In this document: in pieces, positions 1 to 30,835 of the stretch | Layout of the letters: each line of letters starts with the position of its first letter | Numbering within the stretch: position 1 is the first letter of the stretch | IMG/VR virus record: IMGVR_UViG_3300010885_027722 | Location: 1 to 31,034 of that record | Strand: one strand, 5' to 3' | Length of the DNA stretch: 31,034 nt | DNA from: a virus | Made by a program: the position numbers and the translations under genes | The notes under the pieces: model-generated | Seen by the model: only the letters and a program-made list of their open reading frames with translations | Databases searched by the model: none | Told to the model about the DNA's origin: nothing

Positions 1-617
1 ATGCCCTGCAACATCTCAAAGTGTTCTTCAATCATGAATGGCTCGCCGCCAGTGAATTCAATATAGCGAATATCCTCTAGGCATTGATCAATTTGATTCC
101 AGAATTGTGTGTTCTCTCTAGGCCAACGCCCGGCCTTTAACATCTGATAAGGAAAACTAGTCTTACTATGCGCATCCACTGAGTTTGCAATTTCTTCCAC
201 AGCAAAACTACTGCTAGACCAAGATCCACATATACGACATTTCAAATTACATATATTACCTAGTTTGAGATCCAAGAACATGAGTGGTTTAGCATCTTGA
301 GTCCAAGTACTACTTATTCCCATGTGCTTGAGTCTATCCAACGTGTGCATACGTTTGCTAGTACGCCCGGCATCTTCCTCATTCCAACACTTACGGCAAG
401 TGGCAGGTCGATTGCCTGCTAAGAATGCTTGTCGCAATTGATACATGTATTCACTATTTTGAATATCTCGGAAATTAGCAGACTTCAAATTAAATTTAAC
501 ACTATTGCTGTCAACAATTTCATCATCGGCCAAACAGCAAGGACGTACAGTACCAATAGGACTGGCTTCCAGGCTGACCCAGGGCAACACACAGAATTTG
601 TCGTGTGGTAAATTCAT
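1..617 (-). CDS. Radical SAM protein with N-terminal twitch-like Cys region (partial, 3' end beyond window)
   Basis: This is the fourth radical SAM gene of the cassette and the last in the window; 205 codons are visible before the left edge. The radical SAM cluster motif CxxxCxxC is at C123, C127 and C130 (CNLKCRIC), and the SAM-contacting GGEP motif is at residues 190-193. Before the core lies a cysteine-rich region with C9 (FCVLPW), C27-C28 (PCC) and C74/C77 (CRKCW), which could bind an auxiliary Fe-S cluster. This fits the architecture of twitch-domain radical SAM proteins, with the twitch part placed N-terminally. Its ATG (615-617) overlaps the TGA of the preceding gene as ATGA, implying translational coupling. 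It is closest in layout to the neighbour at 614-1876 (FC..PW and PCC type). The substrate is unknown. The family call is firm; the role is not. Confidence 0.85.
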   Translation of the reverse strand, partial: MNLPHDKFCVLPWVSLEASPIGTVRPCCLADDEIVDSNSVKFNLKSANFRDIQNSEYMYQLRQAFLAGNRPATCRKCWNEEDAGRTSKRMHTLDRLKHMGISSTWTQDAKPLMFLDLKLGNICNLKCRICGSWSSSSFAVEEIANSVDAHSKTSFPYQMLKAGRWPRENTQFWNQIDQCLEDIRYIEFTGGEPFMIEEHFEMLQG

Positions 618-1876
618 TTCAACGCCCGTAATTCTGGCAACACATCTAGTATTTTTTCATTTCTTATTGAATCTAATTCATAAGTCTTGCGCCAAAACGT
701 ATCTATTAACTGTGTGTTATCTGTTGCATTCATAAAGGTAATGGCGCTTCGAAATCCTTGTGTGGCACGTTGTAAAGGATCACGGTCACTCATCCAATCT
801 AGATGTTTCAAGTACTTGGCTTCTAGGCGTTGTTTGTATTCAGCAGGTGCAATGTCTATTCTATAGTGTGCGGGATCTTGTAGTATATTCACATTCAAGT
901 CCTGTGCGCGAATAAGTCCGGCCGCAACCCATTCCTTGTGAAAGTCCGGCAAGTGCCAGGCATTCATTATGCTCAGTGTGGGACTTATGTAGAAATCTAC
1001 ATCAGGGCATGTTGCAATCATTCGATGACGGTTTTGCACAACATCGTACCATCGGGTGCCTTTACGTATGTATTCCCCAGCCGTACCCATACCATCTAAA
1101 CTGGCGCCTACTGCCACTGAGTCGAACTGTGACCAGTATTCAAATACTGAACGGCCTTTTAAGTCTGTGTGCGTGAAGTTGGTGTTGTATATTAGTCGTA
1201 CATCAAAGCGTTTTCTCTTTACTAGTTCTTCTAGGATATTATAGTGTTCTTCCATCAACAGCGGCTCACCGCCAGCAAAGTAGATTTGTTCTACATAGTC
1301 CAAATGGGGTTCTAGTTGTGACCACATGTCTGTTTCTGTGCGCCCAGCATAGTTAAGAACTGTGTTGCGATCTTTCCAGTCGCCGCCTGCTAGTTTTGCT
1401 TGGTCTTGATACCATTGGCTTGAAAAGATATGTCCGCAACTTCTGCATTTTAAGTTACACAGGTTTGAAAAACGAATATCCCAATAAGTCATTTCGAATG
1501 GATTGTCATCCAGTTTCTTTATGTGATGCCCGTGATGCTTGTTAGCACTCTTGCGTCCCGAAAAGAATCCAGATTGTTCCTGTTCGTAACAACGGCCGCA
1601 AGTAGGACTAGGCGTTTCGGTCAGCATGTCTGAACGTAGTTTTGTCATAGCATTGTTTTGCCATATTTCTTCAAGTGTGTTTGTACGACAATTGCCCACT
1701 TGCCCCACGCCCATTTCAGCATGACAGCAAGGATATGCTTCTCCAGTGGGATATGCGTGTAAATGTATCCAAGGATAGATACAAAACGTTTTTGAATCTG
1801 TTAACAAAAACTGTTCACGTTCTGTGAGTTCTGTGGCACGTACCAGGTCAGTGGAATTATACTTGTATTGCGTCAT
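614..1876 (-). CDS. Radical SAM protein with N-terminal twitch-like Cys region (FC..PW/PCC type)
   Basis: A 420-residue radical SAM enzyme. Visible motifs are C32 (FCIYPW), C50-C51 (PCC) and C93/C96 (CGRC) in the N-terminal region. The core CxxxCxxC is C140/C144/C147 (CNLKCRSC), and GGEP is at 202-205. The C-terminus (ILDVLPELR) resembles the ends of the two upstream radical SAM proteins (TFPEL, TFPEM). I chose the ATG at 1876, which overlaps the upstream gene by 20 bases. An in-frame ATG at 1960 would add 28 residues and a 104-base overlap, and the added residues look like out-of-frame translation of the upstream gene. Chemistry by family is reductive cleavage of SAM to a 5'-deoxyadenosyl radical. 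The substrate (peptide, sugar or other) cannot be told. Confidence 0.88.
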   Translation of the reverse strand: MTQYKYNSTDLVRATELTEREQFLLTDSKTFCIYPWIHLHAYPTGEAYPCCHAEMGVGQVGNCRTNTLEEIWQNNAMTKLRSDMLTETPSPTCGRCYEQEQSGFFSGRKSANKHHGHHIKKLDDNPFEMTYWDIRFSNLCNLKCRSCGHIFSSQWYQDQAKLAGGDWKDRNTVLNYAGRTETDMWSQLEPHLDYVEQIYFAGGEPLLMEEHYNILEELVKRKRFDVRLIYNTNFTHTDLKGRSVFEYWSQFDSVAVGASLDGMGTAGEYIRKGTRWYDVVQNRHRMIATCPDVDFYISPTLSIMNAWHLPDFHKEWVAAGLIRAQDLNVNILQDPAHYRIDIAPAEYKQRLEAKYLKHLDWMSDRDPLQRATQGFRSAITFMNATDNTQLIDTFWRKTYELDSIRNEKILDVLPELRALK

Positions 1877-3194
1877 ACCATTCTTGTAATTCAGGAAATG
1901 TGGCTCGAAAATCTTTGCCACGACGTTGATCATACTGCGTGTAGAACTGTCGGAAATCATTCAGCAACTTAGGCCGATCAAACGCTTCCGAGTGTGGAGT
2001 CTTTACTACATCCAAATAATCTATTAGACGCTGTGTGTGATTGACCTCGTGCTCGTGAATGAATTTGCTGTCGACCCAGTGTTCTAACCATGTGACTAGA
2101 CGTTGTCTATATACTATGCGCTGGGCTTCTGGTAGGACCAGAGGTGATTGGAAACTAGGAAAGCGTAAAATGTTTAGTGTAAACGAAATGGCTTCTTTTC
2201 CATATTCTAATTTCCAATTCATTATGCATTCCAGCAATTGATCTAGTGTACTTAGGCATAGCGCATTAATGGTACACATAACGTGTATGCCCCGGAACTG
2301 CCCTGAGTCTAATAGTCTTTCTACGTTGTTGGCCCAGTCGTCCCAGACAAGTCCATCACGAATATACTCTGCTTGAGTAGAGATTGCCTCATTGCTTGTG
2401 TATACATCGATTGCCATGTTGGCTGTACTGGCAAGGAATCGGTCAATATCAACGTCGGTGCCCAGGTTACTATTGATAGCCAAGCGTGTGCTACTCTTGC
2501 CCTTATTACTTTTAAACCAATCAATGAGACGCCAAGTGTGGGCGGACATGAGAGGCTCCCCGCCGGTGATTCTAAGTTCCTGAAGACTATGATGTAGATC
2601 TGTTTCCCACCATGCAAAGAATGCATCAATATAGGGATTAGATTCTGCGATCTTAAACAACTGAGAACCATCATGGGTGTGGGTAAAGTGATTGCGCCCG
2701 TCACTAACAAGACTGTGATAAGGTCCGTTATGTCGAATATCATTAACCCAAGTTGTGCTAAAAGCAGGGTTGCAGTAAGAGCAAGCAAATTGACAAGTAC
2801 GATCAAAAGCAATTTCAAGTGTACGGAGATTGACGTCACCGGTGGTTGGTGTATTACGAGCCTCATGCAATGCCTCTATAGGATATATCTTTGATTTGTA
2901 CACACGGTCGCTGACAGCATCTTTGCCCATATCTTCAATTTTCCAGCAGTATTCACAACCCGCAGGACGTTCACCTGCAATCATTTTTGCACGGTCTGCT
3001 TTCTTCTGATCAGTATTGTGCAACAGCCTAGGGTTGGCCTGGACTTTATCAATGTCCACCAAATGGGCTGGAGGGTGGTGACAACTTGTGGTCATACCAG
3101 AGCCTAACCAAATTGTAGCATTGTACCACTTGGCCGCACAAAAACTGTCTGAGAGTTTATCTAAAACTTGATGTTTAAATTCTAAATCGTTCAC
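1857..3194 (-). CDS. Radical SAM protein with N-terminal twitch-like Cys region (C..KW/SCxHPP type)
   Basis: A 445-residue radical SAM protein of a second subtype. The N-terminal region has C19 (CAAKW), C38 followed by HHPP, and C80/C83 (CEYCW). The core CxxxCxxC is C134/C138/C141 (CQFACSYC) and GGEP occupies 211-214. The C-terminus carries DQRRG, then F..TFPE, then W. It is collinear with the protein at 4290-5663 (GGEP at the same residue number, the same SCxHPP, LHNT, ERP..C.YCW and SDR signatures), so the two are paralogues. The start overlaps the upstream glycosyltransferase-like gene by ATGA. The N-terminal cysteines could ligate an auxiliary Fe-S cluster. Substrate unknown. Confidence 0.87.
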   Translation of the reverse strand: MNDLEFKHQVLDKLSDSFCAAKWYNATIWLGSGMTTSCHHPPAHLVDIDKVQANPRLLHNTDQKKADRAKMIAGERPAGCEYCWKIEDMGKDAVSDRVYKSKIYPIEALHEARNTPTTGDVNLRTLEIAFDRTCQFACSYCNPAFSTTWVNDIRHNGPYHSLVSDGRNHFTHTHDGSQLFKIAESNPYIDAFFAWWETDLHHSLQELRITGGEPLMSAHTWRLIDWFKSNKGKSSTRLAINSNLGTDVDIDRFLASTANMAIDVYTSNEAISTQAEYIRDGLVWDDWANNVERLLDSGQFRGIHVMCTINALCLSTLDQLLECIMNWKLEYGKEAISFTLNILRFPSFQSPLVLPEAQRIVYRQRLVTWLEHWVDSKFIHEHEVNHTQRLIDYLDVVKTPHSEAFDRPKLLNDFRQFYTQYDQRRGKDFRATFPELQEWYDAIQV

Positions 3195-4300
3195 AAATTG
3201 CTTTGGATAAAATTGATAAAACGGTCAGGAAATTCTCGAAATATTCGGATTCCTTCTGCCGCCAAGTGTTGTTGATTATACTTAGTTACAGCCCGACTTG
3301 CAACCAGAAATTCCTCCAGATCATGGGCGCACAAGTCTTGTACCACTTGTGCTATCCTGTCTAAACGGTCTTGATTGTTGTCTATCTGATCAAACGATTC
3401 ATCAATTAGATGGCCGAACGTTTGGAATCCTGCATTATGTAAGTCGCGATAAAAGCCGCAATTGGCCACAGCCACAAAAGGATGACCCATGGTAATGGGT
3501 TTGTAGATTTTTTCACTGCGTAGGCTGTAAGGATAGTCAAACACAGTTTCTGACACCAAACTAAAATAGGTATCTATGTAAGGCTCTGCTCGAATATATA
3601 TGTCACCCCATTGGTTACCAAACAATTCGTGCTTGATGAATGCATGTTGATATTGATCTTTTTGTCCTGATTGAAATTGTTCTACTTCGTATTCAGGAGG
3701 CAGTAGTTGTATCTTGCTGGGTCTCTCAAACAACTCAGTTGAATAGGTATGATTGTATACTGGGGTAGTGTCTAGATTGGTCCATAGTGCGTGAGCCAGT
3801 AATCCAGCGTCACGCATTTTTTCTATCATGTATTTCCTATGCGGTCTTGTGCGACCATTCAAAAATAGAAACTTGTAGGGCTTGTTTAATTTGTTGTAGA
3901 TTTCATCTGCTCTAGCGCCTTGTTCTGTATTGCTTTTGTAGCACGTTGCTCTGTAGGCATAGTGATCATAAACCATGCAGTTGAGTTCAGATTCCATATT
4001 GCCACAACCTACTAACAATAGTTTTTGATCTCGAATTAAATCTAATAATCCTAACCGCTGACATTGCAGTTTCAGAGTTTGTGATCCTTCAGAAGGATTT
4101 GCCAGGACAGGTAAACAGATCCCAGCAAGTTGTTTGACTCGATCTGCGTAGCGATTTATAGTTTGTCTAGCCAGTACAACAATGTCATTGGGGTTGGGTT
4201 CATACTGCTCAAAGTCCCAAAATGTGTCGTCCACTAGATGTTGTATTTCCGTATGTATCTCACATGATGTATCACATACAAGTCTGCGATTACCTAGCAT
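3191..4300 (-). CDS. Putative GT-B-like glycosyltransferase, lying between two radical SAM genes
   Basis: A 369-residue soluble protein with no signal peptide or membrane segment seen. The C-terminal half has SEKIYKP at 262-268, then GHPFVAVANCGFYRDL, then GF.TF. This pattern (Glu-Lys pair, then a turn to a 'preferred form' loop) is typical of the nucleotide-sugar half of exostosin/fucosyltransferase-like GT-B enzymes. The middle has LFLNGRTRPHR (146-155), as expected at a domain junction. A related protein is encoded at 6504-7472 (EKIWRP...TPFIVHG...GFKTF), so the operon holds two members. The start overlaps the upstream radical SAM gene by 11 bases. It probably transfers a sugar in the same pathway; donor and acceptor are unknown. 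The family is inferred from motifs only. Confidence 0.5.
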   Translation of the reverse strand: MLGNRRLVCDTSCEIHTEIQHLVDDTFWDFEQYEPNPNDIVVLARQTINRYADRVKQLAGICLPVLANPSEGSQTLKLQCQRLGLLDLIRDQKLLLVGCGNMESELNCMVYDHYAYRATCYKSNTEQGARADEIYNKLNKPYKFLFLNGRTRPHRKYMIEKMRDAGLLAHALWTNLDTTPVYNHTYSTELFERPSKIQLLPPEYEVEQFQSGQKDQYQHAFIKHELFGNQWGDIYIRAEPYIDTYFSLVSETVFDYPYSLRSEKIYKPITMGHPFVAVANCGFYRDLHNAGFQTFGHLIDESFDQIDNNQDRLDRIAQVVQDLCAHDLEEFLVASRAVTKYNQQHLAAEGIRIFREFPDRFINFIQSNL

Positions 4301-5663
4301 GATATTTGCACTCGTCCCACCAGGATCTCATTTCAGGAAATGTCTCTAAGAAGTTGGTGCCGCGACGTTGATCATGTTCGTTAAAGAACCTATAGAAATC
4401 TGCACGGTCTTGAGAATGATCTTGTGCCTGTGCTGATCGCATCCAAGCAATGTCTCTGTCCAGTCGCGCCACTTCGTAGTCTTTGAATCCTTGATGCGGG
4501 TAGCGCGGATCTTCCATGTGTTCTAACATAAACTGTTTGACTTCTTCGAGTTTGAGTGCATAACTCGCAGGTAGTATTTGCAAACTCTGCCAGGAAGGTG
4601 TGCGCAACACAGGAGTATCAAACCATATGCGTTGATAAGTGCGATTGTGTGTTCTTCTTAGAAACAGTATCCAACCCAGCAAGGATTTCAATCCTGTTAC
4701 TGAAAGATTATTCATGGTAATGATAAACGTAAGACTGTTATAGGAGGGCACTTCAGTCAGGTATCGATTCACATTTTCAAACATTCGCATATAATCAAGA
4801 CCGTGCCGTATGTATTCTGCCTGCGCAGGCATGCCCGAGTCTACGCTTACATACTGCATGAAGTGTTCAATGCGTCCGTCACAAATATTTTTTACATAGT
4901 CAAGATACCGTTTGAACAACTCAGGTTCTACTGAAAAGTTTGACGTAACGTTCAAATGCAGTTTCTTACTGGGATTGGCCAACACATAATCAAACACCCT
5001 GTATGTGTTCTTGTCCATCAGTGGTTCACCACCGGTCATACGAAAGTGTTCTAGTTCAGGATAAAGCGTTGGCCACCAACGCCAAAATGCTTCTACATAA
5101 GGGTTTGCATCCTTCACTGGAATAGGACGGTTACGTCCGATAAAATGACTGGGATCGTTATGAACACGACTAGTCGGGTAGCCGCCCCATCGATCAACTT
5201 CAGCCTGCCAGGTGCTAGAGAATTGAGGGCTACAATAACTACAACTGAGGTTACAAGCGTGATTAAAATTAACTTCAACATAACTAGGTACAACATCTTC
5301 TGTTCCTGTGGAATTCTTTATTGTTTCAAAGTCCACAGCGGCCCAGGGCTCGCCTGAACGATAGTGTCTGTCACTGAGTTTGCCCTGATCTTCCATGTTC
5401 CAGCAATAGGAACACTCTAAGGGACGCTCTTGACGTAACATGATCTTTCGTTGTTCTTTTTTGTGTGGTGTGTTGTGTAACGCACCCGGGTTATCTTTTA
5501 ACAGTGCAGAATCTATAGCATGCAGGGGAGGATGATAACAACTATTGTTGAGTCCTGTGGGCAGGTGCAAAGAGACCTGTTTCCATTTGGCCAAACAAAG
5601 TGCTGGGCCCAGTTTGTCCTGCATTTGTTCTGCATTATGCATGAAATTTGATTTGTTTGTCAT
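4290..5663 (-). CDS. Radical SAM protein with N-terminal twitch-like Cys region (C..KW/SCxHPP type)
   Basis: The first of the four radical SAM genes to be translated, 457 residues. The N-terminal region has C23 (CLAKW), C42 then YHPP, and C84/C87 (CSYCW). The core CxxxCxxC is C137/C141/C144 (CNLSCSYC), followed by SPQFSSTW, and GGEP is at 211-214. The C-terminal signature is HDQRRG, then F..TFPEM and WWDE. It is paralogous to 1857-3194 along its whole length. The ATG at 5663 overlaps the stop of the SGNH-like gene as ATGA. Nothing in it points to a particular substrate. It might act on the same substrate as its paralogue in sequential steps, or the two could form a heteromer; both are inference. 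Confidence 0.88.
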   Translation of the reverse strand: MTNKSNFMHNAEQMQDKLGPALCLAKWKQVSLHLPTGLNNSCYHPPLHAIDSALLKDNPGALHNTPHKKEQRKIMLRQERPLECSYCWNMEDQGKLSDRHYRSGEPWAAVDFETIKNSTGTEDVVPSYVEVNFNHACNLSCSYCSPQFSSTWQAEVDRWGGYPTSRVHNDPSHFIGRNRPIPVKDANPYVEAFWRWWPTLYPELEHFRMTGGEPLMDKNTYRVFDYVLANPSKKLHLNVTSNFSVEPELFKRYLDYVKNICDGRIEHFMQYVSVDSGMPAQAEYIRHGLDYMRMFENVNRYLTEVPSYNSLTFIITMNNLSVTGLKSLLGWILFLRRTHNRTYQRIWFDTPVLRTPSWQSLQILPASYALKLEEVKQFMLEHMEDPRYPHQGFKDYEVARLDRDIAWMRSAQAQDHSQDRADFYRFFNEHDQRRGTNFLETFPEMRSWWDECKYHAR

Positions 5664-6502
5664 ATTAATTCTGAGTAGATATATTCAGCCCACATATCAT
5701 GTAACTGTTTATTGGGGTGATACCTTGGCTGTATTAAATCACACGATTCTAAAACGTTAACTCTGCTATTGGCCAATACAGATTGTTCTGCGGCCCAGTC
5801 GAGAAACGGATTTTTTGACAGCGACCATTCAATATCAAATATTGATTCAAATTTATCAAAGATATAAGGACTTATAAAATAGCATTGTTGGTCTAGATTT
5901 GTAGCCTGACCTAGCCAAGACTGCGGTAATAGATAGTCATTGGCTCCTGCAATTCCAATGGGTTCAACAAAGTTAGTGGCTAGTTTAAGCCGAAGAGTTG
6001 GTATGCGTTTAGCGTCAGCAATGATTTGGTCAACTACCAATTGATTTTGATAGGCTAAAAATTTAGTGTAATCATCTGCCGATGCAATGTTGTTTCTCAA
6101 CCAACTTGCGTAGTCTACTGTTCTATCAAACCATCCATTAAATTCTCTACCTACTTCTGTTAGTGTTACAACGCAAATGATATTGTTGTATTTTGTGTTG
6201 TTAACAGCAAAGTCAACAAATTCTGAAAACAATACGCCAATGTATTGATTGCCAGCACCCGGTACAGAAAGGTTCAACCAGTCATGGTTTAGTTTTTTTG
6301 CCAGTGTATTGCCGTAAGCCAACTCTGTTCGAGTTCCCGGATCTAGTTCGTCTCCCCATGTCCAACTATCCCCAAACGTTACCAGCAGATCTTTCTGCCC
6401 ATAGTCTGTAAAATTAAAGGGAATAGAGTTTTCTTCAAGATGAACAATTATATTTTTATTGGGCAAGGTAAAATTGGCGCCTAATACTTCTGTGGTAAAC
6501 AT
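5660..6502 (-). CDS. SGNH/GDSL-hydrolase-like protein
   Basis: A 280-residue protein with the block I signature FGDSWTWG at 43-50 (nucleophile Ser46). SVPGAGNQY at 79-87 gives block II/III-like Gly and Asn, and a C-terminal HPNKQLHDMWA places His262 as the likely catalytic base. In the SGNH family the C-terminal motif is usually DxxH; here the position three before His262 is Pro259, so the canonical Asp is missing. Family members deacetylate or transfer acyl groups on sugars, lipids or peptides. Among glycosyltransferases, a carbohydrate esterase or acyltransferase role is the most natural inference. It has no signal peptide, suggesting cytoplasmic action. One base separates it from the upstream stop at 6504. 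Confidence 0.7.
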   Translation of the reverse strand: MFTTEVLGANFTLPNKNIIVHLEENSIPFNFTDYGQKDLLVTFGDSWTWGDELDPGTRTELAYGNTLAKKLNHDWLNLSVPGAGNQYIGVLFSEFVDFAVNNTKYNNIICVVTLTEVGREFNGWFDRTVDYASWLRNNIASADDYTKFLAYQNQLVVDQIIADAKRIPTLRLKLATNFVEPIGIAGANDYLLPQSWLGQATNLDQQCYFISPYIFDKFESIFDIEWSLSKNPFLDWAAEQSVLANSRVNVLESCDLIQPRYHPNKQLHDMWAEYIYSELI

Positions 6503-6503
6503 C

Positions 6504-7472
6504 TTATGTGTTGATATTTTGAAAATTAGATTCTGTTAAACTCATCAAAAGATTATAATTGTGCTCAATTGTTGGTTGCATATCTGCGTACATAGATTCA
6601 AGTTCGCCAATTGACAATTGACTTAGACAATCTAATATTTTAGGAATTTCTGTCAATTGCCACCCTTCGGGATCTTCGCTGTATCCTTCGTCCCACCATT
6701 GGTGAAAAGTTTTAAATCCCAACTTGCGCAGTCTTGGTAAAAAGTTTTGTGGACCATGCACAATAAAAGGTGTACGCATCAACATGGGACGCCAGATTTT
6801 TTCATCAATGTAAAATGTGCTACCAGACCAATAGGTTAAGTTAACAACCTCTACAAAAAAATCAGGGTATAGTTTGGTAATGTTTAATGTTGCAGGATTT
6901 AAAATAGGATATTGATCAATCTTGTCGGATTTGATAGGGGCAGCCTTGATCAATTCAATTGCACTATCAACACACTCCCAACCATGCTGAAGAAACATTA
7001 AATCTTCAACTCCAATAAAAGGCCGATGATATGCATCTGCTGTATCACAGTGGTACGTTTGCAAAGTTTTTTCACGGTGATTTTGATAAAGATAACTGCC
7101 TAGGTACAATCTGGGCAAGTTACCGTGTCCAACAAAATGTCCAAAATGTTTTTTGATCTGTTTGTTATCACCAGGCGGTGCGTATTTTTGTGCAGTATCT
7201 AAGTAGATTGTCTGAGGATTAATTACAACATTATAAACATGATGTTTTTCTATTAGATTACAAGTGTTTATATAAATTTGATTGCCAGGATACCCAAAAC
7301 GGTCACACATGTTGTCTAATAATTCGTATAGGCCAAGACTACTAGCACAAGGTCCTTCTCCGTTGGTACTGAGATCTATTCTGGGCAATCTTGTGCTCAT
7401 GGCATGTGCCAAGTCAATTATGAGTTGATCTCGGTTCCAGATAGTACTATCGCTGTTGGCAAATACAATCAT
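6504..7472 (-). CDS. Putative GT-B-like glycosyltransferase
   Basis: A 322-residue protein related to 3191-4300 in its C-terminal half: DEKIWRP at 223-229, RTPFIVHGPQNFLPRL, then GFKTFHQWWDEG. The Glu-Lys and following Pro-Phe loop resemble the donor-binding part of exostosin/fucosyltransferase-like enzymes. The N-terminal half holds a His-rich stretch (KKHFGHFVGHGNLPRL, 107-121), with no clear catalytic residue identified. There is no membrane segment. The start overlaps the SDR gene as ATGA. It is more AT-rich than the transferase genes further upstream in the operon, as are its two neighbours. A sugar-transfer role fits the setting, but the assignment rests on a short C-terminal motif. Confidence 0.45.
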   Translation of the reverse strand: MIVFANSDSTIWNRDQLIIDLAHAMSTRLPRIDLSTNGEGPCASSLGLYELLDNMCDRFGYPGNQIYINTCNLIEKHHVYNVVINPQTIYLDTAQKYAPPGDNKQIKKHFGHFVGHGNLPRLYLGSYLYQNHREKTLQTYHCDTADAYHRPFIGVEDLMFLQHGWECVDSAIELIKAAPIKSDKIDQYPILNPATLNITKLYPDFFVEVVNLTYWSGSTFYIDEKIWRPMLMRTPFIVHGPQNFLPRLRKLGFKTFHQWWDEGYSEDPEGWQLTEIPKILDCLSQLSIGELESMYADMQPTIEHNYNLLMSLTESNFQNINT

Positions 7473-8191
7473 TTTAGATACTGTTCAATATAATCAAACG
7501 TTTGACTTGTTGTAAAATTATAGCGACCAAATGGCAATTTCTCACATGATAAATTGTAAGGTACACAAGGTGTGCTATTGACTTGAACACCAGGAAAAAA
7601 ATGATCAATTATTGTTTGATTTTCAATGGGCTCACTCACAAGATTGATGTCTTGGATATTGTTGTCAATGACGGTGTTGATGTCGTCAATTAATTTATGC
7701 AGTGGGTAATATTGTCTGACTTCTTTACTGTTGATTTTATCTAGATATAAACTGTGTTTTAAATCATACAATATATTTTTTTTAATAGTAGGATGTATTA
7801 GTGTACATAATCTTACCACATGATGATTATCAAACTGAGTTTTGACAAATTTTTCAAGTTGTCCGCGATTGTGGCCGTAAACAGATTCTGGTGCGTGTAT
7901 AACATCACCAGAACTGATCAAGATAAATCTATCAGCAGTAATTGTTTTTAGATTTTCTATTAGAAAATATACACTAGATTGGTCTTGTTCTGGGTGTGTA
8001 TTTGCTAATAATCTGTTGCCCGAAGGTGCGGCACAATAAACAGTGTCAAAATGTCGGTCTTGTATGTCATTGATATTTGAAGAATTATATTCCAAATCAA
8101 ATGTGATACTTGATTTAAGTACTCCGCCAATGAGACCAGTTGAACCAATTAAAGCCAGCACATTACCAACCTTCTTGTGCTCTAATGACAT
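7469..8191 (-). CDS. SDR-family (Rossmann) NAD(P)-dependent sugar epimerase/dehydratase-like protein
   Basis: A 240-residue Rossmann protein. GSTGLIG at 16-22 is the dinucleotide-binding GxxGxxG loop. SSG at 93-95 and YGHNRGQLEKF at 105-115 are the SDR active-site Ser and Tyr regions, and YYPLHKLIDDI near 161 resembles the later conserved segment of extended SDRs. The Lys of YxxxK is Arg109 here. Extended SDRs of this kind epimerise, dehydrate or reduce nucleotide sugars, which suits a glycosyltransferase operon. At 240 residues it is shorter than typical extended SDRs (~300 and up). The open frame continues upstream, but those residues are overlap with the previous gene. I chose the ATG at 8191. 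A GTG at 8161, one base after the upstream stop and eight bases behind AGAAGG, is a serious alternative. Confidence 0.68.
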   Translation of the reverse strand: MSLEHKKVGNVLALIGSTGLIGGVLKSSITFDLEYNSSNINDIQDRHFDTVYCAAPSGNRLLANTHPEQDQSSVYFLIENLKTITADRFILISSGDVIHAPESVYGHNRGQLEKFVKTQFDNHHVVRLCTLIHPTIKKNILYDLKHSLYLDKINSKEVRQYYPLHKLIDDINTVIDNNIQDINLVSEPIENQTIIDHFFPGVQVNSTPCVPYNLSCEKLPFGRYNFTTSQTFDYIEQYLK

Positions 8192-9089
8192 CAATTTCTC
8201 GAACCATGATGCCTTGATTGTGCCAGTTTGATCTATAGTGATGCTTGAAAAAACGGCTGGCTTCTGCTGTGAGCATGTGCATGGGCAAGTCCAGTTGCGT
8301 GGCCAAATCATCTGCCAGTCGATTGGCAATGATTTCAGGCTGATCATTTTCCACAGTTTTGAAAAGTTCTGCCAAGGCCTCAAAGTTTTGTACCTGCAAG
8401 TAATCCCAATTGGTAAGCATGGTCATATAAGTGCCTTGCCTTGCACCTGCAATTGACCAGTAGCCATAATCCACATCGCCGCCCACATTGTGCCATATGG
8501 TCAAATGATCCAAGTTTCTTTTATGCACTTGGTCGCGGAACTCTGCCACACTAGGGCGAGCACCACGATTCAAACACATTTTGACACCTTCACGGAAGCC
8601 GGCACGCCAAGCGTGGAATGCCGAACCATTGGGATATGTCACACTGTAGCAATCATGCATGGCCCAGTATAAGGGGTCAAAGCAAAACTCTATCTGTGTT
8701 TCTGTTGCACCATCTGTGTTCTCATGTGTGCGCATGTTAATTACATGTGTGCGGGTCCAGGATGAAAGTCCACCGTTGCCATACATCAATCCATTGATAT
8801 GGTTACGTGCTCGCCATCTAAACACAGCCTGCTCATAATCACCAGTAGGAAAATCCAGTGTTTGATTAAAAAATGCCGGGTCAGGGAGGTTGTCCCCATC
8901 AATGAGAACAAATCTTTCTGTACCACTTGCATCAGCGGCTGCTTTGTGTGCCGCGTCAGAGCCGTGTATGCCATCAACTCTTTGGGCCCACGGAACCATA
9001 TTTTTGATCTTGACCCAGAATTCTTCTTTTTGTGGTTCATCATATGATAGGTAAATGCAATCTAAATCTGCTATGTCAATCTTGCTCAT
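8163..9089 (-). CDS. GT-A-like glycosyltransferase with DGD motif
   Basis: A 308-residue soluble protein. The segment FVLIDGDNLPDPAFF (60-74) places D64-G-D66 at the end of a hydrophobic strand, as expected for the metal- and nucleotide-sugar-binding DxD of GT-A enzymes. YGNGGLSSWTR (103-113) and ATETQIEFCFDP (128-139) follow, resembling the acceptor side of family-2-like transferases. The N-terminus is MSKIDIADLDCIYLSYDEP, and a first strand ending YLSYDEP is usual for such folds. It overlaps the upstream 113-residue gene by 14 bases. It differs in sequence from the two GT8-like proteins upstream. Donor and acceptor are unknown. Confidence 0.6.
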   Translation of the reverse strand: MSKIDIADLDCIYLSYDEPQKEEFWVKIKNMVPWAQRVDGIHGSDAAHKAAADASGTERFVLIDGDNLPDPAFFNQTLDFPTGDYEQAVFRWRARNHINGLMYGNGGLSSWTRTHVINMRTHENTDGATETQIEFCFDPLYWAMHDCYSVTYPNGSAFHAWRAGFREGVKMCLNRGARPSVAEFRDQVHKRNLDHLTIWHNVGGDVDYGYWSIAGARQGTYMTMLTNWDYLQVQNFEALAELFKTVENDQPEIIANRLADDLATQLDLPMHMLTAEASRFFKHHYRSNWHNQGIMVREIDVIRAQEGW

Positions 9090-9417
9090 ATTGTTTTAAC
9101 TTCCATCGTTGGTGTTCTTGCTGTGCGCTTACAACAACAGCAACATCGCCAAGATCACAAGGTGTTCCTTGATCACTGGGTACTAATTTTGGTGGCACTG
9201 GTCGCTTGCGAGGTGTTAGCACACCGTCGACCACACGTACCTGCAAGTCTCTTAATGCAAACTGTTCTGGAGTAACGTCAATGTACTTACCGGGCTGATC
9301 TTCATGGCTGTAAAACAATGGCATGCCCAAATCATCGTGATAGAGTCTGTAATAAACAGTCTTGATCTCAGGCCACTCAATGGCCTTCCAAAAGTCTAAA
9401 AACTCTTGTTCATTCAT
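9076..9417 (-). CDS. Hypothetical protein, 113 residues
   Basis: A small cytosolic protein I do not recognise. It begins MNEQEFLDFWKAIEWPEIK and carries tyrosine-rich YYRLYHDD near residue 22. The middle is basic and proline-rich (LTPRKRPVPPKLVPSD), followed by a C-terminal alpha-helical tail (SAQQEHQRWKLKQYEQD). No cysteine pairs, signal peptide or membrane segment are seen. It overlaps the preceding glycosyltransferase gene by 8 bases and the next by 14, so it is clearly part of the operon. A partner or adaptor for the transferases is possible but not shown. Confidence 0.75.
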   Translation of the reverse strand: MNEQEFLDFWKAIEWPEIKTVYYRLYHDDLGMPLFYSHEDQPGKYIDVTPEQFALRDLQVRVVDGVLTPRKRPVPPKLVPSDQGTPCDLGDVAVVVSAQQEHQRWKLKQYEQD

Positions 9418-10177
9418 GTCGCCAATCCTTCATATGATAGTGTACCGCGCCCCATTGAGCCACAGTATTAAATCTCAGCGGGTTTGATTCCCACACCAAT
9501 TCTTGTGTCCAGTTGGATGTATGAGTTGCGATCATGTGGCGTTTCATGTGTACAATTTGAGGATAACTCACAAACGGCAAGGTGACCAGTTCTGGTCCTG
9601 TAATCTGTGCGGCCATGGCATACACTAGATCGGTCGATGGCACATCATCTGGGAACTTTAACAAAGTTTTGTACTCAGCCCAGTTTTCAAATATGTTGCG
9701 CACCAGTTGAAAAAACTCTTTTGCTGTTTGACTCACCCGCCAGTATGTGATAGCATTATAAACATCAGGTAAGTAGTTGGCATCAAATACTTTTCTATAG
9801 AATCTACTCTCAGCAGGTTGATCATAAAAGTCTCTAGCACCTGTTGATATCACAAGATCTCTATGTTCAAACATAGTCCACCAGTGATCGATAGGGCTGG
9901 CAATGACCATGTCTGCTTCTAATTTGATAGTTTGTCTGTAAGGGCTGGCAGCAAAGCACTGCCAATCATTAGCAAATCCACCTTGATCGCCATAGGGCAA
10001 CTGGTCTTGAGTGAGTATGGTTATGTTGGCGTTAGGATGCCATTGGCGTATGCTGTTGGCCAACTGTTCAGCACAGGCTACATAGTCTACATCTTCTGTG
10101 TTGATGGCTGGTATGAGATAACCACGTTCAGCAAGAATTGGCAATGATATCTCCGAGGTGTTTCTTGCCCATGGCAT
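9410..10177 (-). CDS. GT-A glycosyltransferase, GT8-like (EAD variant)
   Basis: A 255-residue protein paralogous to the gene immediately upstream (10128-10934). The putative metal and nucleotide-sugar site is KLEADMVIAS, with E87-A-D89 in place of the usual DxD. Shared elements are DYV.CA...A..I (30-43), SPYRQT (78-83), AITYWR and a D.VYAMA helix. The family adds hexoses to proteins or glycans; the substrate here is unknown. The ATG at 10177 gives a 50-base overlap and no visible ribosome site. A TTG at 10144 lies six bases after GGAG and would shorten the protein by 11 residues, and it may be the true start. No membrane segments or signal peptide. Confidence 0.65.
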   Translation of the reverse strand: MPWARNTSEISLPILAERGYLIPAINTEDVDYVACAEQLANSIRQWHPNANITILTQDQLPYGDQGGFANDWQCFAASPYRQTIKLEADMVIASPIDHWWTMFEHRDLVISTGARDFYDQPAESRFYRKVFDANYLPDVYNAITYWRVSQTAKEFFQLVRNIFENWAEYKTLLKFPDDVPSTDLVYAMAAQITGPELVTLPFVSYPQIVHMKRHMIATHTSNWTQELVWESNPLRFNTVAQWGAVHYHMKDWRHE

Positions 10178-10934
10178 GAAAAGACGTGCCAGCCCAGGCT
10201 ATCTTTTTTGGACGTTTGTTGTCTAGATATTCAATTTGAAAGAAGTCTTCGTCCAGTTGTGTAAGTGTGTGCTCGGGCATGACGCTGGCCAAGCGAAACG
10301 GTATGTTGTCTACTCGTAAAGTATGGCCACTTACAATGCCCAAGGCGATACTGAGTGCGTAATCATTGCGGTAAGTGGGTCCTGGAATATGATACAGGTC
10401 TTTGTAGTGACGCCAGTTGGCACGTATCATATTCATTGAATCAAAAATGTATTGTGCCATGTTTGATTTGCGGAACATCATCACCGTGGCCCACCACATG
10501 GGCATGCGATTATGGCCAAAATAGTCAAGACCATCAAAGTTGTTCATGCTGGTCATGTCCCAAGCGTATCTATGACACATAAAGTCTTGTGGACTATTAA
10601 TTACGGTCTGTAATTCATTGCCGCACACCACATAGTCAGCATCTAGTACTAGGGTTTGATCCCACGGGGAAAGAGTATAGGCATCAGTTCTACCCGCGTT
10701 GTGCCAAGACACAGTTGCTTGATAATCCTCAAACCAACGTGTTCCTCCGGAAACTGGCGCCGCATTAATGACTTGATCTGCGGCTCTAAGTCTTGGATCT
10801 GTTGGATCTGCGTCCGTGACGATGGCCACTGGAATGTTGAGGTGCCTATGAATTCGTTTAGCACTCCACCCAGCCATAGTAACGTAATCGGTTTGTTCAT
10901 TGTCAAACGCAAATATCAATGCGCCTGTGGTCAT
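10128..10934 (-). CDS. GT-A glycosyltransferase, GT8-like (DAD motif)
   Basis: A 268-residue protein with the family pattern of GT8-like enzymes. An N-terminal strand with DYVTMAGWSAKRIHRHL is followed by IPVAIVTDAD. The catalytic-metal motif LVLDADYVV has D98-A-D100, then comes WWATVMMFRK, and a late RNDYALSIALGI helix. It is paralogous to the next gene, so the pair arose by duplication and then diverged (DAD against EAD). It is the first clear enzyme of the accessory operon, overlapping the 102-residue gene as ATGA. It likely transfers a sugar from a nucleotide donor in the cytoplasm. The acceptor could be a virion protein, a host glycan or the product of the downstream radical SAM enzymes; this is undetermined. 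Confidence 0.7.
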   Translation of the reverse strand: MTTGALIFAFDNEQTDYVTMAGWSAKRIHRHLNIPVAIVTDADPTDPRLRAADQVINAAPVSGGTRWFEDYQATVSWHNAGRTDAYTLSPWDQTLVLDADYVVCGNELQTVINSPQDFMCHRYAWDMTSMNNFDGLDYFGHNRMPMWWATVMMFRKSNMAQYIFDSMNMIRANWRHYKDLYHIPGPTYRNDYALSIALGIVSGHTLRVDNIPFRLASVMPEHTLTQLDEDFFQIEYLDNKRPKKIAWAGTSFHAMGKKHLGDIIANSC

Positions 10935-11239
10935 CGTTTTTGACTCTGCTGATCATATTCTACCAGCCAGGCATTCATTTGTTCTTGCCAGTGTGCGTGT
11001 GCCCGTGCAAACAATTCAGGAACATTCACACGCACAGGAGTTTCATACAAGTCTAGTAGCACAACATCTTTGTCTTGAGCGCAACTCAGCAAAGTGCATT
11101 GCAAGTCAGGCCCTGCTCGCCACATGCCACCGCCATGCGCAAACAACAGTTTGGCCTCGTACTTTTCTTTTAACACGCGGCGAGCGGCCACATGATCAAA
11201 ACGTGCTCGTGCATGAGCAATTAATGCGTCAGTATTCAT
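10931..11239 (-). CDS. Hypothetical protein, 102 residues, first gene of accessory operon
   Basis: A small protein I cannot assign. It starts MNTDALIAHARARFDHVAARR, predicted helical and rich in Ala, Arg and His. A central AKLLFAHGGGMWRAGPDLQ resembles a short beta hairpin, and VVLLDLYETPVRVNVPEL leads into a Trp-containing helix near the C-terminus. No catalytic motif was found. Six bases before its ATG is a TATAAT box and no Shine-Dalgarno is visible, suggesting a leaderless message. The long open frame in the same phase as a packed operon makes it a real gene. Confidence 0.75.
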   Translation of the reverse strand: MNTDALIAHARARFDHVAARRVLKEKYEAKLLFAHGGGMWRAGPDLQCTLLSCAQDKDVVLLDLYETPVRVNVPELFARAHAHWQEQMNAWLVEYDQQSQKR

Positions 11240-11245
11240 TGTACA

Positions 11246-11274
11246 ATTATAAAAGAAAAAAGGGCAAAAGTCTA
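11246..11274 (-). promoter_or_regulatory. Candidate sigma70-type promoter for the accessory operon
   Basis: On the minus strand TAGACT (11269-11274, four of six bases match TTGACA) is followed after 17 bases by a perfect TATAAT (11246-11251). The ATG of the 102-residue gene begins six bases downstream, where transcription would be expected to start, so the message may be leaderless. The -35 part lies within the terminator hairpin. This is a sequence match only. Confidence 0.45.
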
Positions 11275-11285
11275 CCTTTTGCCCT
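11251..11285 (-). terminator. Intrinsic terminator of the tail-gene operon
   Basis: On the minus strand a perfect 10-base stem (AGGGCAAAAG and CTTTTGCCCT, loop GTAGA) spans 11261-11285. It is followed by a T tract, TTTTT C TTTT, at 11251-11260. It lies 15 bases beyond the stop of the structural gene ending at 11301 and immediately before the accessory operon. Confidence 0.9.
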
Positions 11286-11300
11286 GATTGAGTTTGCCAA

Positions 11301-12296
11301 TTAGGCTACACTGGCAGCAATAGAGGGTGTTCCCCACGAATTAGACAATGTGGCTGAACTTGGTGGAAGATATGTGACCAAGGTGGTTGGTGCTGTGCCT
11401 GTGATTGTGGTCGAAGGACTTGTGGTTGCTGTACCACCTGAAATATTAGCACTAGTACCTGCGCCTGATGAACCATCGCTGACCCAGGTTGTGACCAGAG
11501 TCAACACAGTACTCGAAGTGGCTGTGGCTGTGGTACGAATATACTCACCAGAATATGGCGAAGTACTGTTGTTTAGTTGGAATATAGTAGCGGGTGTGCC
11601 TGTTAGGTTGTACCAACCTGTTGTGGTAGCAAGAGTGGTTTCTGTACCGCCTGACCCGCCAAGACGTGTGGTACCAGTATAGGCCTGTGCCGCAATGGTT
11701 TGTGAGGCACCGTTTACTCGACCAGTCAGATTGATTGAGCCGCACCAGCCAGCAAGTGTGTTCCAGTCTGGATCATTATCAGTACCGGTTGAACTCTTGC
11801 CGTATTTGAGACGCACGATTCCGCCTGCGTTCCAGAAGTAACGTGCTTGGTTGGCACTTGGAAACGTTACTGTATGTGTAAATGTAATAGTCCAAGCATC
11901 CTGACCTGAACCGGTGGCTGTGGTTTTGCTTGTGGTGCCTGAGAATACACCATATTCTGCGCCTGAGGCTATGGCATTGCCACGATTGGTTGTAACACTG
12001 GTAATATCAGTGCTTACGTTAGCAAAAATGCCAATTATGTTTCCTGTTACAGGTGCAGTTCTTGATGTAATAGTTGTGTTGGTTTGGGTTCCTGATGTGG
12101 CCAGGTTATTAACCAAGGTAGCCCATTGTGTGGCGGTTACTGTGTTGGCACCAGCACTCACCGTGGCTATGTCAGTTTGTCCCCATCCTGCATCACCTGA
12201 TCCGGTACTCCATACACGATTTAATCCTGCTGTGGTATTACCCGCAAAGGTGTTGTAATCTGACGCTTGTATTAGTGATCCTGATGAATAAGTCAT
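11301..12296 (-). CDS. Phage structural / tail-fibre-like protein
   Basis: A 331-residue protein with the composition of a phage tail appendage: rich in Thr, Ser and Gly, few charged residues, and many short beta-prone segments. The N-terminus (MTYSSGSLIQASDYNTF, then NRVWSTGSGDAGWGQT) matches my memory of structural proteins in T4-like environmental phages. The middle has WTITFTHTVTFPSANQARYFWNAGG, and the C-terminal third is a Thr-rich low-complexity beta region. It is the last gene before the terminator, 12 bases downstream of the tail-fibre gene. AGGA lies seven bases before the ATG, which supports the start. Its place at the end of the tail cluster suggests an appendage or host-contact protein. 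No enzymatic motif seen. Confidence 0.6.
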   Translation of the reverse strand: MTYSSGSLIQASDYNTFAGNTTAGLNRVWSTGSGDAGWGQTDIATVSAGANTVTATQWATLVNNLATSGTQTNTTITSRTAPVTGNIIGIFANVSTDITSVTTNRGNAIASGAEYGVFSGTTSKTTATGSGQDAWTITFTHTVTFPSANQARYFWNAGGIVRLKYGKSSTGTDNDPDWNTLAGWCGSINLTGRVNGASQTIAAQAYTGTTRLGGSGGTETTLATTTGWYNLTGTPATIFQLNNSTSPYSGEYIRTTATATSSTVLTLVTTWVSDGSSGAGTSANISGGTATTSPSTTITGTAPTTLVTYLPPSSATLSNSWGTPSIAASVA

Positions 12297-12308: not shown

Positions 12309-13532
12309 TTATTTAATTGTGACAATGGCTTCTACTGTGCCAAGTCCTGTGTCTAATTTATCTGCTAGTGCGCGACCAATCACATTAAACGCGGTGGCTT
12401 CTTCTGGTTGTGCCGATCTGGCAATACCGTCACCTGCTGAAATCAATCTGTCACCTTTGCGCACAGCACCTGTCACACGCACAGGCACACGACCTGTCAT
12501 GGCCACTGGAGGATGTGTATCGTTTTCGCCTGCACCACCATTCATGGTAAATGCAGGACGAGTAGAAATTACACCAAATACATTGTTGCTGGCATCTGTC
12601 TTGACCATGGTAATTTCGGCTGATCCACCTAGTTCAACCACTGTGCCTGGGGTATATATTTCGTCTGCGGCAAAACGTTCTGCAACGTCAGCATACAATG
12701 CTGTGGTTGCTGTGGCAAAAATTGTGTTGAAGTAACTGCCGGAACTACCAATATTACCAATAGCGTTACCTGCACCGTTGATAATAGAAGTGGCAGCACC
12801 ACCAGTGTTTATGGTTATAGCCCCATTGACATTTAATGTGCCGCCGGTTACGAGGTTACCACCAGTAACAGTACCAGTTGCTGACACAGTTCCTGAGGCT
12901 GCAAGATTTGTTCCTACAACATTACCCCAAACAGCATTGTTTGCAATACCTGTAGCAAGAGTGAAACCAGGTTTAACTTGTTGTACTCCCCAGCCGCCGG
13001 GCACTGCTGTGCCTGGAGTAAATGTTTGATCTTTGCTGATAATACCCACAATACTGTTGTTGGCATACAACTCAATTACAAAATGTGATGTTGCTGTGTT
13101 GTCAACAATGGTAGCAACAATAGCGCCTGTTGTGCCTGTTCCGGGAGTGTATGCTGGTCCCACCACAATCCAGGTAGAACCTGAGTAGACATTCAACTGT
13201 TGATTTACTGTGTCATACCACAAATCACCGGCCACATTTGAACTTGGAGCAGAGGATGCGGCAGCGGCTCCACCAATGGTCTTGAATGTCGTTCCGTTGT
13301 AGACCTGCATTGTACCTACTGTTTTGTTCCACCAAAGTTGTCCAGTTAGGGGTGCTCCGGGTGCTGTGGTGTTGGCTCCATTTTCCAGTAGACGAATAAA
13401 GTTATCGTCTAGGAATTGTCCGTAGCCGGCCCAGTTTTTGCCCACCAGGGTCATGCTGGAAGCGGTATTGATGGTACCATCTGCTATTGTAGCAAAAATT
13501 TGACCATCAGTTAATGTAATTGTATATGACAT
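12309..13532 (-). CDS. Tail fibre protein
   Basis: A 407-residue protein. Residues 64-88 and 101-125 are two copies of a tail-fibre repeat with the pattern GxLWW/Yxxxxxxx(Q/N)VYxGxTxxxxxG. A Gly/Thr/Asn-rich shaft (about 210-270) follows. The C-terminal domain from YADVAERF (280-287) continues with PGTVVELGGSAEIT, NVFGVISTRPA and RKGDRLISAGDG. The ADxAExF entry motif and this fold order resemble C-terminal domains of other phage fibres, some of which self-cleave, but I cannot confirm that here. The start has GGAG six bases upstream. The probable role is host recognition or fibre assembly. Confidence 0.75.
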   Translation of the reverse strand: MSYTITLTDGQIFATIADGTINTASSMTLVGKNWAGYGQFLDDNFIRLLENGANTTAPGAPLTGQLWWNKTVGTMQVYNGTTFKTIGGAAAASSAPSSNVAGDLWYDTVNQQLNVYSGSTWIVVGPAYTPGTGTTGAIVATIVDNTATSHFVIELYANNSIVGIISKDQTFTPGTAVPGGWGVQQVKPGFTLATGIANNAVWGNVVGTNLAASGTVSATGTVTGGNLVTGGTLNVNGAITINTGGAATSIINGAGNAIGNIGSSGSYFNTIFATATTALYADVAERFAADEIYTPGTVVELGGSAEITMVKTDASNNVFGVISTRPAFTMNGGAGENDTHPPVAMTGRVPVRVTGAVRKGDRLISAGDGIARSAQPEEATAFNVIGRALADKLDTGLGTVEAIVTIK

Positions 13533-13558: not shown

Positions 13559-13566
13559 TATTTATG
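13559..13566 (-). promoter_or_regulatory. Late-promoter-like element before tail-fibre gene
   Basis: CATAAATA on the minus strand differs in one base from the T4 late consensus TATAAATA. It overlaps the stop of the upstream gene and sits 26 bases before the tail-fibre ATG, leaving room for a short leader with its GGAG. A chance match is possible. Confidence 0.35.
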
Positions 13567-14176
13567 CTGTGCTCAAGTTGATCAGGGTCTGTATGCGCAC
13601 AGTATAGTCAATTTGTATTTGACGATTTAAACTCTTTTGGACTGGGTGAAAAATCACGTGAGTTAACAGTCTATCTGCTGTGCTACCAGTCCAGGCTTTT
13701 AAACCCAGTTCATCAAATACATATTCACCGTTGAAATTGGTTGAATTATCAAAGGCTTGTTGCCCTGGTGGTTCGCCGTAGTCCAGCAAACAACTGACCA
13801 AAATATCAGTATAAACCTTGCCCGATGTGTGTAGCACAGTCATTTTGTTGTTGGCAGGATCTGTGTCAGCCACAGAGTTGTCATCAACTATTTTGACATA
13901 CGTTTCGTTGTAGAGATCAGCATTTATACCAGTGGTATTTGGGGGCAAGTATGTAATTATACCAGTAGGGTCCACACTTGAACCACCGTTGCCAAATGCC
14001 ATTGTATAAATCCAGCCGCCGCCTTGTGCGCTGGTGCGATTGCTTAGAGTTTCAGCAAGACTAATACTCATATTTTCATAATGAATAGCGTTCTTTTTGT
14101 CTACAAATACTTCTCCGTTGTTTGGATCAAATATCTTGACAAATCCTTCAATTTTTACCAGACCTGGAGAAATCAT
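13562..14176 (-). CDS. Phage structural protein with N-terminal GFVKIFDP motif
   Basis: A 204-residue protein, probably virion-associated. Its first 30 residues (VKIEGFVKIFDPNNGEVFVD) are repeated in the 48-residue gene just upstream. The body is rich in Asn, Thr and Gly with aromatic beta-strand segments (GGGWIYTMAFGNGG, YVFDELGLKAW) and ends IQIDYTVRIQTL. The clause AIHYENMSISLAETLSN follows the repeat and looks like a short helix. It lies between the giant structural protein and the tail fibre, so a collar or baseplate appendage role is likely by context. The start overlaps the small upstream gene as ATGA. No enzyme motif was seen, and I cannot name a T4 counterpart. Confidence 0.65.
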   Translation of the reverse strand: MISPGLVKIEGFVKIFDPNNGEVFVDKKNAIHYENMSISLAETLSNRTSAQGGGWIYTMAFGNGGSSVDPTGIITYLPPNTTGINADLYNETYVKIVDDNSVADTDPANNKMTVLHTSGKVYTDILVSCLLDYGEPPGQQAFDNSTNFNGEYVFDELGLKAWTGSTADRLLTHVIFHPVQKSLNRQIQIDYTVRIQTLINLSTA

Positions 14177-30814: not shown

Positions 30815-30819
30815 ACTAG

Positions 30820-30827
30820 TATTTATA
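30820..30827 (-). promoter_or_regulatory. T4-type late promoter (TATAAATA) upstream of gp25
   Basis: The minus strand reads an exact TATAAATA, the T4 late promoter octamer, in the 21-base gap before gp25. In T4 it acts as a -10 element with the phage sigma gp55 and clamp-linked coactivator gp33. Here the ATG begins five bases later, so a transcript made from it would have almost no leader. Confidence 0.65.
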
Positions 30828-30835
30828 TCCTAAAA

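Follow-up and report, generated by a model that had tools for sequence, protein, structure and literature searches.

Organization of the operon

The window analysed here, a viral contig fragment of 31,034 bases (IMG/VR record IMGVR_UViG_3300010885_027722), carries an operon of radical S-adenosylmethionine (SAM) enzymes and putative glycosyltransferases (GTs) next to phage tail genes. Genes are numbered from g1, at the contig end, up to g19, and all lie on the minus strand (Table 1). Positions 1 to 11239 hold 13 open reading frames (ORFs), read from g13 to g1, nearly all of which overlap (by 4-100 nt). The initial annotation of this DNA had placed 13 overlapping minus-strand genes here, just downstream of tail genes and a terminator. 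Coordinates, count and both neighboring features were right; however, the operon is longer than described. The contig end falls inside g1, so that the block is incomplete; it covers the leading two thirds of an operon that runs from the g13 promoter to a carbamoyltransferase gene, c6. Position 1876 is a likelier start for g2 than 1960, given that many relatives align from residue 29 onward only, and comparison with relatives likewise favors a start of g8 at about 8191 over 8383.

Table 1. Genes of the operon, its control region and the adjoining tail module, with the product assigned to each
Feature	Position	Strand	Description
g1	1..617	-	Twitch-domain radical SAM; fragment at contig end (about 403 aa in relatives); NF033640, 184 bits
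g2	614..1876 (ORF opens 1960)	-	About 420 aa; twitch-domain radical SAM; NF033640, 394 bits
g3	1857..3194	-	445 aa; twitch-domain radical SAM; NF033640, 289 bits
g4	3191..4300	-	369 aa; GT-B glycosyltransferase (predicted fold)
g5	4290..5663	-	457 aa; twitch-domain radical SAM; NF033640, 312 bits
g6	5660..6502	-	280 aa; SGNH/GDSL-like hydrolase; variable cargo
g7	6504..7472	-	322 aa; GT-B family protein, homologous to g4; variable cargo
g8	7469..8191	-	About 240 aa; SDR-like Rossmann protein; variable cargo
g9	8163..9089	-	308 aa; highly conserved putative GT-A; IDGDN motif
g10	9076..9417	-	113 aa; small conserved protein; 76/80 g9-anchored loci
g11	9410..10177	-	255 aa; g12 paralogue; putative GT-A; KLEADM motif
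g12	10128..10934	-	268 aa; putative GT-A from motif only; GT8-like motif LVLDADYVV
g13	10931..11239	-	102 aa; conserved, no assigned function; first gene of operon; 80/80 g9-anchored loci; dN/dS 0.03-0.06
Control region	11240..11300	-	Intrinsic terminator after g14, then promoter of g13
g14	11301..12296	-	331 aa; Ser/Thr-rich (34%) tail-module protein; adjoins operon in 80/80; candidate glycan acceptor
g15	12309..13532	-	Tail-fibre-like; Peptidase_G2-like C-terminus; homologue of Atu_ph07 gp176
g16	13562..14176	-	Virion-module protein (phrog_11259); homologue of Atu_ph07 gp177
g17	Upstream of g16	-	4199-aa virion protein
g18	Upstream of g17	-	gp6-like wedge
g19	Upstream of g18	-	Baseplate gp25-like protein
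c4	Past window end		Fifth twitch radical SAM; 62/62 spanning loci
c7	L061:13818-14858		346-aa conserved protein between c4 and c6; 62/62 spanning loci
c6	Past window end		TobZ/NodU-type O-carbamoyltransferase; PF02543 E=1e-39, PF16861 E=2e-46

Conservation of the operon in related phages

Related loci were collected from two anchors. Relatives of g2 numbered 158, from which 80 loci were kept; g9, a second anchor that avoids selecting loci by their radical-SAM genes, yielded at least 550 viral relatives, 80 of which were again kept. The two sets have some contigs in common and the loci are therefore not all independent. The order g9-[cargo]-g5-g4-g3-g2-g1-c4-c7-c6 was present in all 62 of the 62 loci that span the distance from g9 to the carbamoyltransferase. 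Extra copies occur here and there, and two of these loci lack the g4 family. Over both anchor sets the gene order was seen again in about 160 loci, so that the cluster is not due to chance. Scattered and unlinked radical-SAM and GT genes, which the initial annotation had named as evidence against a common pathway, are thus not the pattern in related phages.

Within the g9-anchored set, genes g14 to g11 and g9 occurred in 80 of 80 loci and g5 in 77. A twitch radical-SAM gene was found in 78 (in 76 of them co-directional), the remaining two contigs ending early. In L143 and L154 no co-directional radical-SAM gene follows g9 and the nearest one lies on the other strand, an arrangement indicating that g13-g9 forms one module and the radical-SAM half another, and that the two can be separated. 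In the same set, tail genes g14 to g17 precede the block wherever the contig reaches that far. The operon genes that were tested are under purifying selection, with ratios of nonsynonymous to synonymous substitution rates (dN/dS) of about 0.03-0.15 for genes with usable pairs (g6, g7 and g8 fall outside that set).

The nearest named relatives of g18 belong to the jumbo myoviruses Phosso and Atu_ph07 (33-35% identity), pEa_SNUABM_47 and the 121Q/PBECO4 group. The phages that carry the operon are large, come from freshwater and count among the jumbo myoviruses as distant relatives of Atu_ph07, Phosso and 121Q. Beyond the operon end, on the opposite strand, 44 of the 80 g2-anchored loci carry a relative of arginine:glycine amidinotransferase (phmmer E=2e-15; for example L067:19071-20111), a gene unusual for a phage.

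The radical-SAM proteins

The radical-SAM proteins g1, g2, g3 and g5 all score above the cut-off of NF033640 (N_Twi_rSAM, NCBIfam; 170 bits for the whole protein), and all four are members of this family, the name of which carries no function. In an alignment of 45 paralogues the CxxxCxxC motif (C137, C141 and C144 in g5 numbering), GGE, C42, C84 and C87 are invariant and C23 is nearly so; the N-terminal twitch cysteines, for an auxiliary cluster, are present. The family scores and the alignment together bear out the four radical-SAM enzymes with CxxxCxxC, GGE and N-terminal cysteines that had been recognized in the initial annotation. As a query in genome contigs, g2 returned one distant bacterial relative only and gave no hint from cellular context. 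The PADLOC search gave weak viperin matches only, due to the shared radical-SAM core, and thus no sign of a known defence system. Twelve large related contigs of 178-353 kb (L031, L037, L039, L043, L059, L082, L074, L046, L048, L071, L061 and L017) each hold 7-19 twitch radical-SAM matches, sub-cut-off ones included, many of them far from the operon.

Predicted glycosyltransferases and conserved small proteins

The model of g4, with a predicted local distance difference test score (pLDDT) of 95.6, identifies the protein as a predicted GT-B glycosyltransferase. All 50 listed fold matches are GT-B-type enzymes (Z 13.7-10.9), including GT10 fucosyltransferase, T4 beta-glucosyltransferase, TarM and Gtf3, and the top match (Z 13.7) extends across 271 residues with a root-mean-square deviation of 4.0; Foldseek alone gave no match to the model at E < 0.001. 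Sequence homology to g4 places g7 in the GT-B family. Since T4 beta-glucosyltransferase and the GT of phage HY126 are among the best fold matches of g4, the operon could be thought to hypermodify phage DNA bases by glycosylation and carbamoylation, and, according to work cited within PMC12619734, phage DNA is able to bear complex glycans. However, g4 matches the GT-B class in general and not DNA GTs alone, the operon is located in the tail module, and a thymidylate-synthase-type pyrimidine hydroxymethylase was found in none of the 12 large related genomes, the records of which may be incomplete, in a search that did detect its control. We consider DNA modification very improbable.

Genes g9, g11 and g12 likely encode further GTs. 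The g11 and g12 proteins are homologues of one another (hhalign 98%) and carry LEAD/LDAD motifs. The g9 protein, with a mean column identity of 77%, gave a model of moderate quality (pLDDT 67), the best folds of which are GT-A or nucleotidyltransferases (Z at most 7.6, mostly in the N-terminal half). No profile match of g11 or g12 to any GT family was obtained, hhalign comparisons with the GT8 enzymes WaaJ/WaaO and with Vibrio phage GTs were not significant, and g11 matched phrog_1903, a family of unknown function, at E=2e-5. Profile searches of Pfam, PHROGs, NCBIfam and PDB returned nothing firm for g9 to g13 and c7; g13 had no PDB relative, and c7 had no detectable relative in Pfam, PDB or cultured phages. 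Of the five GT-like proteins originally proposed, the two GT-B-like ones are upheld, g4 by predicted fold and g7 by homology. The three GT-A-like ones are only likely, favored by the homology and motifs of g11 and g12 and by the moderate fold of g9 and weakened by the lack of a GT family match.

The variable cargo slot

Between g9 and g5 lies a slot of variable content, filled here by g8, g7 and g6. Protein g8 has a glycine-rich motif and a weak match to RmlD (E=0.23), and its matches occur in 14 of the 80 g2-anchored loci, mostly as partial ones, and in 2 of the 80 g9-anchored loci. Protein g6 has the GDS motif and an alignment to PF00657 (E=0.0012) that, at 19.4 bits, does not reach the cut-off of 23.6; it was found in 1 of 80 g2-anchored and 3 of 80 g9-anchored loci. 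The short-chain dehydrogenase/reductase (SDR) and SGNH hydrolase of the initial annotation therefore keep their motifs, with profile matches that are weak or below cut-off, and lie in the variable slot and not in the core. Part of the slot (7001-8000) has a G+C fraction of 0.35, an A+T-rich composition that fits acquired cargo. Other phages hold in this slot an SGNH protein, a sulfotransferase-like protein, or a TctC-like substrate-binding protein with an AMP-ligase and an SGNH-like protein, the last combination in several phages (L048:2497-3417, L049:3414-4499). Elsewhere in the operon some relatives carry genes which by sequence are named GDP-mannose dehydratase-, GHMP-kinase- and fucose-synthase-like. 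An FkbM methyltransferase is also among the cargo of relatives, and Pfam supports the TctC, AMP-binding and FkbM assignments.

The control region upstream of g13

A terminator stem (11261-11285) lies 3' of g14 and is followed by a -35-like TAGACT, 17 nt and a TATAAT box that ends 6 nt upstream of the g13 ATG. Among 104 distinct upstream sequences, TATAAT is matched at 5-6 of 6 positions in 99, and in 96 the start codon follows the box at a distance of 5-7 nt; TTTACT or TAGACT precedes it, with a spacing of 17 nt in the examples printed, and only 2 of the 104 contain a Shine-Dalgarno-like sequence. A strong hairpin is present in 94 of 104, compared with 9% of shuffles, and in the alignment its sequence varies among phages as the stem is preserved. 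If transcription started 6-7 nt past the TATAAT box, the mRNA would begin at the g13 ATG. The g13 message is thus probably leaderless and the operon probably transcribed apart from the tail genes. Note that similar TATAAT boxes may be a general trait of these phages. A T4-type late promoter sequence, TATAAATAC, occurs at 30815-30828, about 5 nt before the g19 ATG, also in a leaderless arrangement. An argument on timing from this promoter type (TATAAATA at 30827, before g19) was dropped, the motif being barely above control in related genomes.

A proposed pathway and its acceptor

With confidence and doubt in about equal measure, we interpret the operon as directing the cytoplasmic synthesis of a radical-SAM-tailored, carbamoylated glycan, which would most likely be attached to tail proteins. 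The sequences and models show the gene set with its order and conservation, the promoter sequence, the predicted GT-B fold of g4, the family of the radical-SAM enzymes and the near lack of membrane proteins; we infer the chemistry, order of steps and acceptor as follows. Soluble GTs (g4 and g7 of GT-B type, probably g9, g11 and g12 of GT-A type) would assemble or transfer sugars. The five paralogous radical-SAM enzymes, of which the window holds four, all have an auxiliary iron-sulfur domain at the N-terminus and would remodel the sugars or the acceptor by radical chemistry such as oxidation, epimerisation or deoxygenation. The TobZ/NodU-type enzyme would then carbamoylate a hydroxyl, and the variable slot would exchange extra tailoring enzymes (SDR, SGNH, sulfotransferase-like, GDP-sugar synthesis) between phages. 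The acceptor would most likely be a neighboring virion tail protein (g14 or g15), the phage thereby altering the surface of its own adhesin. Tail proteins are suggested as acceptor because the operon is fixed in place behind the tail genes and because g14 is rich in Ser and Thr. The single biosynthetic or decorating pathway put forward in the initial annotation is well supported, as a co-transcribed sugar pathway, by the core order, the O-carbamoyltransferase and the deoxy- and nucleotide-sugar cargo of some relatives; g6 and g8, however, are not among its core members. A more specific version, possible but doubtful, is that the fixed array of five radical-SAM enzymes carries out successive radical steps on a protein-bound or nucleotide-activated glycan, which is then carbamoylated and shown on the tail, a scheme without described counterpart.

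Several points weigh against a glycan on the virion. A place close to the tail genes does not prove that the acceptor is on the virion, and the operon has its own sigma70-like promoter, so that by its sequence expression together with the tail genes would not be required. Membrane-bound glycans of the host are also within reach of soluble GTs, and g9, g11 and g12 are without a statistically firm GT match. Furthermore, for the twitch radical SAMs of the NF033640 family we know of neither a substrate nor a product nor an acceptor.

Membrane proteins are nearly absent from the operon. A simple hydropathy scan of ORFs of at least 100 aa on the operon strand of 80 loci found at least two transmembrane (TM)-like segments in 1 of 1364, and no multi-TM flippase, polymerase, Gtr-type protein (GtrA/GtrB/GtrC) or transporter was seen in the operon region of these loci. 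This fits soluble enzymes and a cytoplasmic acceptor and speaks against Gtr-type conversion of lipopolysaccharide (LPS) and against exported metabolites. It also bears on the proposal that the operon remodels the O-antigen or another surface glycan of the host and so blocks superinfection, as PMC7029224 proposes for the GTs that pelagimyophages encode in their tail-adjacent host recognition cluster. The GDP-sugar-like, SDR and FkbM cargo does resemble LPS genes, and the sigma70-like promoter before g13 could act ahead of the late phase. However, besides the lack of membrane components, a core fixed for five radical-SAM enzymes is unlike the fast-changing O-antigen islands, and we hold remodeling of host glycans to be unlikely.

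Comparison with known systems

The statement in the initial annotation that no described system has this combination was too strong in outline, given the radical-SAM cassettes and GTs of pelagimyophages (PMC7029224) and the cultured Vibrio phages K566/K567, which combine twitch radical SAMs and GTs. PMC7029224 reports that the host recognition cluster of pelagimyophages, a hypervariable region beside the tail fibres, contains GTs and radical-SAM cassettes; the freshwater pelagimyophages it covers are without radical-SAM genes. The operon resembles this cluster, as found in pelagimyophages and cyanomyophages, in being GT-rich, with radical-SAM cassettes, beside tail-fibre genes and downstream of a large baseplate protein. 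The cluster is described as hypervariable and non-syntenic, whereas the core of radical SAM, GT and carbamoyltransferase described here is fixed in the spanning loci, varies only in certain slots, and belongs to a different group of jumbo phages. In K566/K567 (L085:11980-19719), four twitch-type radical SAMs lie interspersed among GT8-like and GT4-like proteins, with a structural-like protein nearby; however, these radical SAMs are only about 21-28% identical to ours, the GTs are of other families, and no carbamoyltransferase was identified in the block. Some proteins of that cluster are annotated merely as hypothetical.

The cultured rhizobial jumbo phages Atu_ph07 (gp165-gp172) and Phosso (282-291) have a radical-SAM operon in the same genomic location, where it follows homologues of gp6, the giant protein, g16 and g15. 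In contrast to the operon of the window, their radical SAM has a C-terminal SPASM domain, no GTs were seen, and there is a candidate peptide-like target; homology is not established. Their operon (L088:36909-43647, L089:20866-29015) looks like a phage-encoded peptide-modification system. The conserved protein in it that ends in CHxSCHASCHxSRSRR, a possible maturation target, suggests that the radical SAMs of the window might modify polypeptides, either virion proteins or peptides akin to ribosomally synthesized and post-translationally modified peptides (RiPPs), and that the GTs might then glycosylate the same protein; many SPASM and twitch radical SAMs are indeed peptide maturases. However, the Atu_ph07 and Phosso enzymes belong to other subfamilies, so that the shared position does not amount to homology, and no conserved short Cys-rich ORF of the RiPP precursor type was seen near the radical SAMs among ORFs of at least 50 aa. 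Weak PDB profile matches include enzymes that act on nucleotides or nucleosides, namely viperin and cytosylglucuronate decarboxylase. We regard polypeptide modification as distinctly unlikely.

The proposed glycosylation of tail proteins has parallels among viruses. The capsid GTs of PBCV-1 are soluble, virus-encoded enzymes that act on virion proteins. PBCV-1 and mycobacteriophage virion glycosylation resemble the proposed pathway in their virus-encoded GTs, which there act on virion proteins; to our knowledge, neither has a radical-SAM array or a carbamoyltransferase. The mycobacteriophage case, phage GTs acting on virion proteins, is that of Freeman 2023 as cited in PMC12619734. A moraphage paper concerns another lineage and leaves radical SAM unmentioned. 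Among the papers searched, none described this operon or combined radical SAM with carbamoyltransferase and phage. The operon is unusual among tail-adjacent radical-SAM/GT cassettes for its fixed array and its carbamoyltransferase.

Implications

Radical-SAM enzymes are costly, oxygen-sensitive catalysts. Despite this cost, at least five of them are fixed in one tail-linked operon. If these phages do build a new glycan on their virions, an extensive radical-SAM family that lacks an assigned function would gain one, a type of surface chemistry in viruses would come to light, and new enzymes for tailoring sugars would become available. The distant Vibrio phages K566/K567, with their similar but divergent cluster, offer an experimental entry point.

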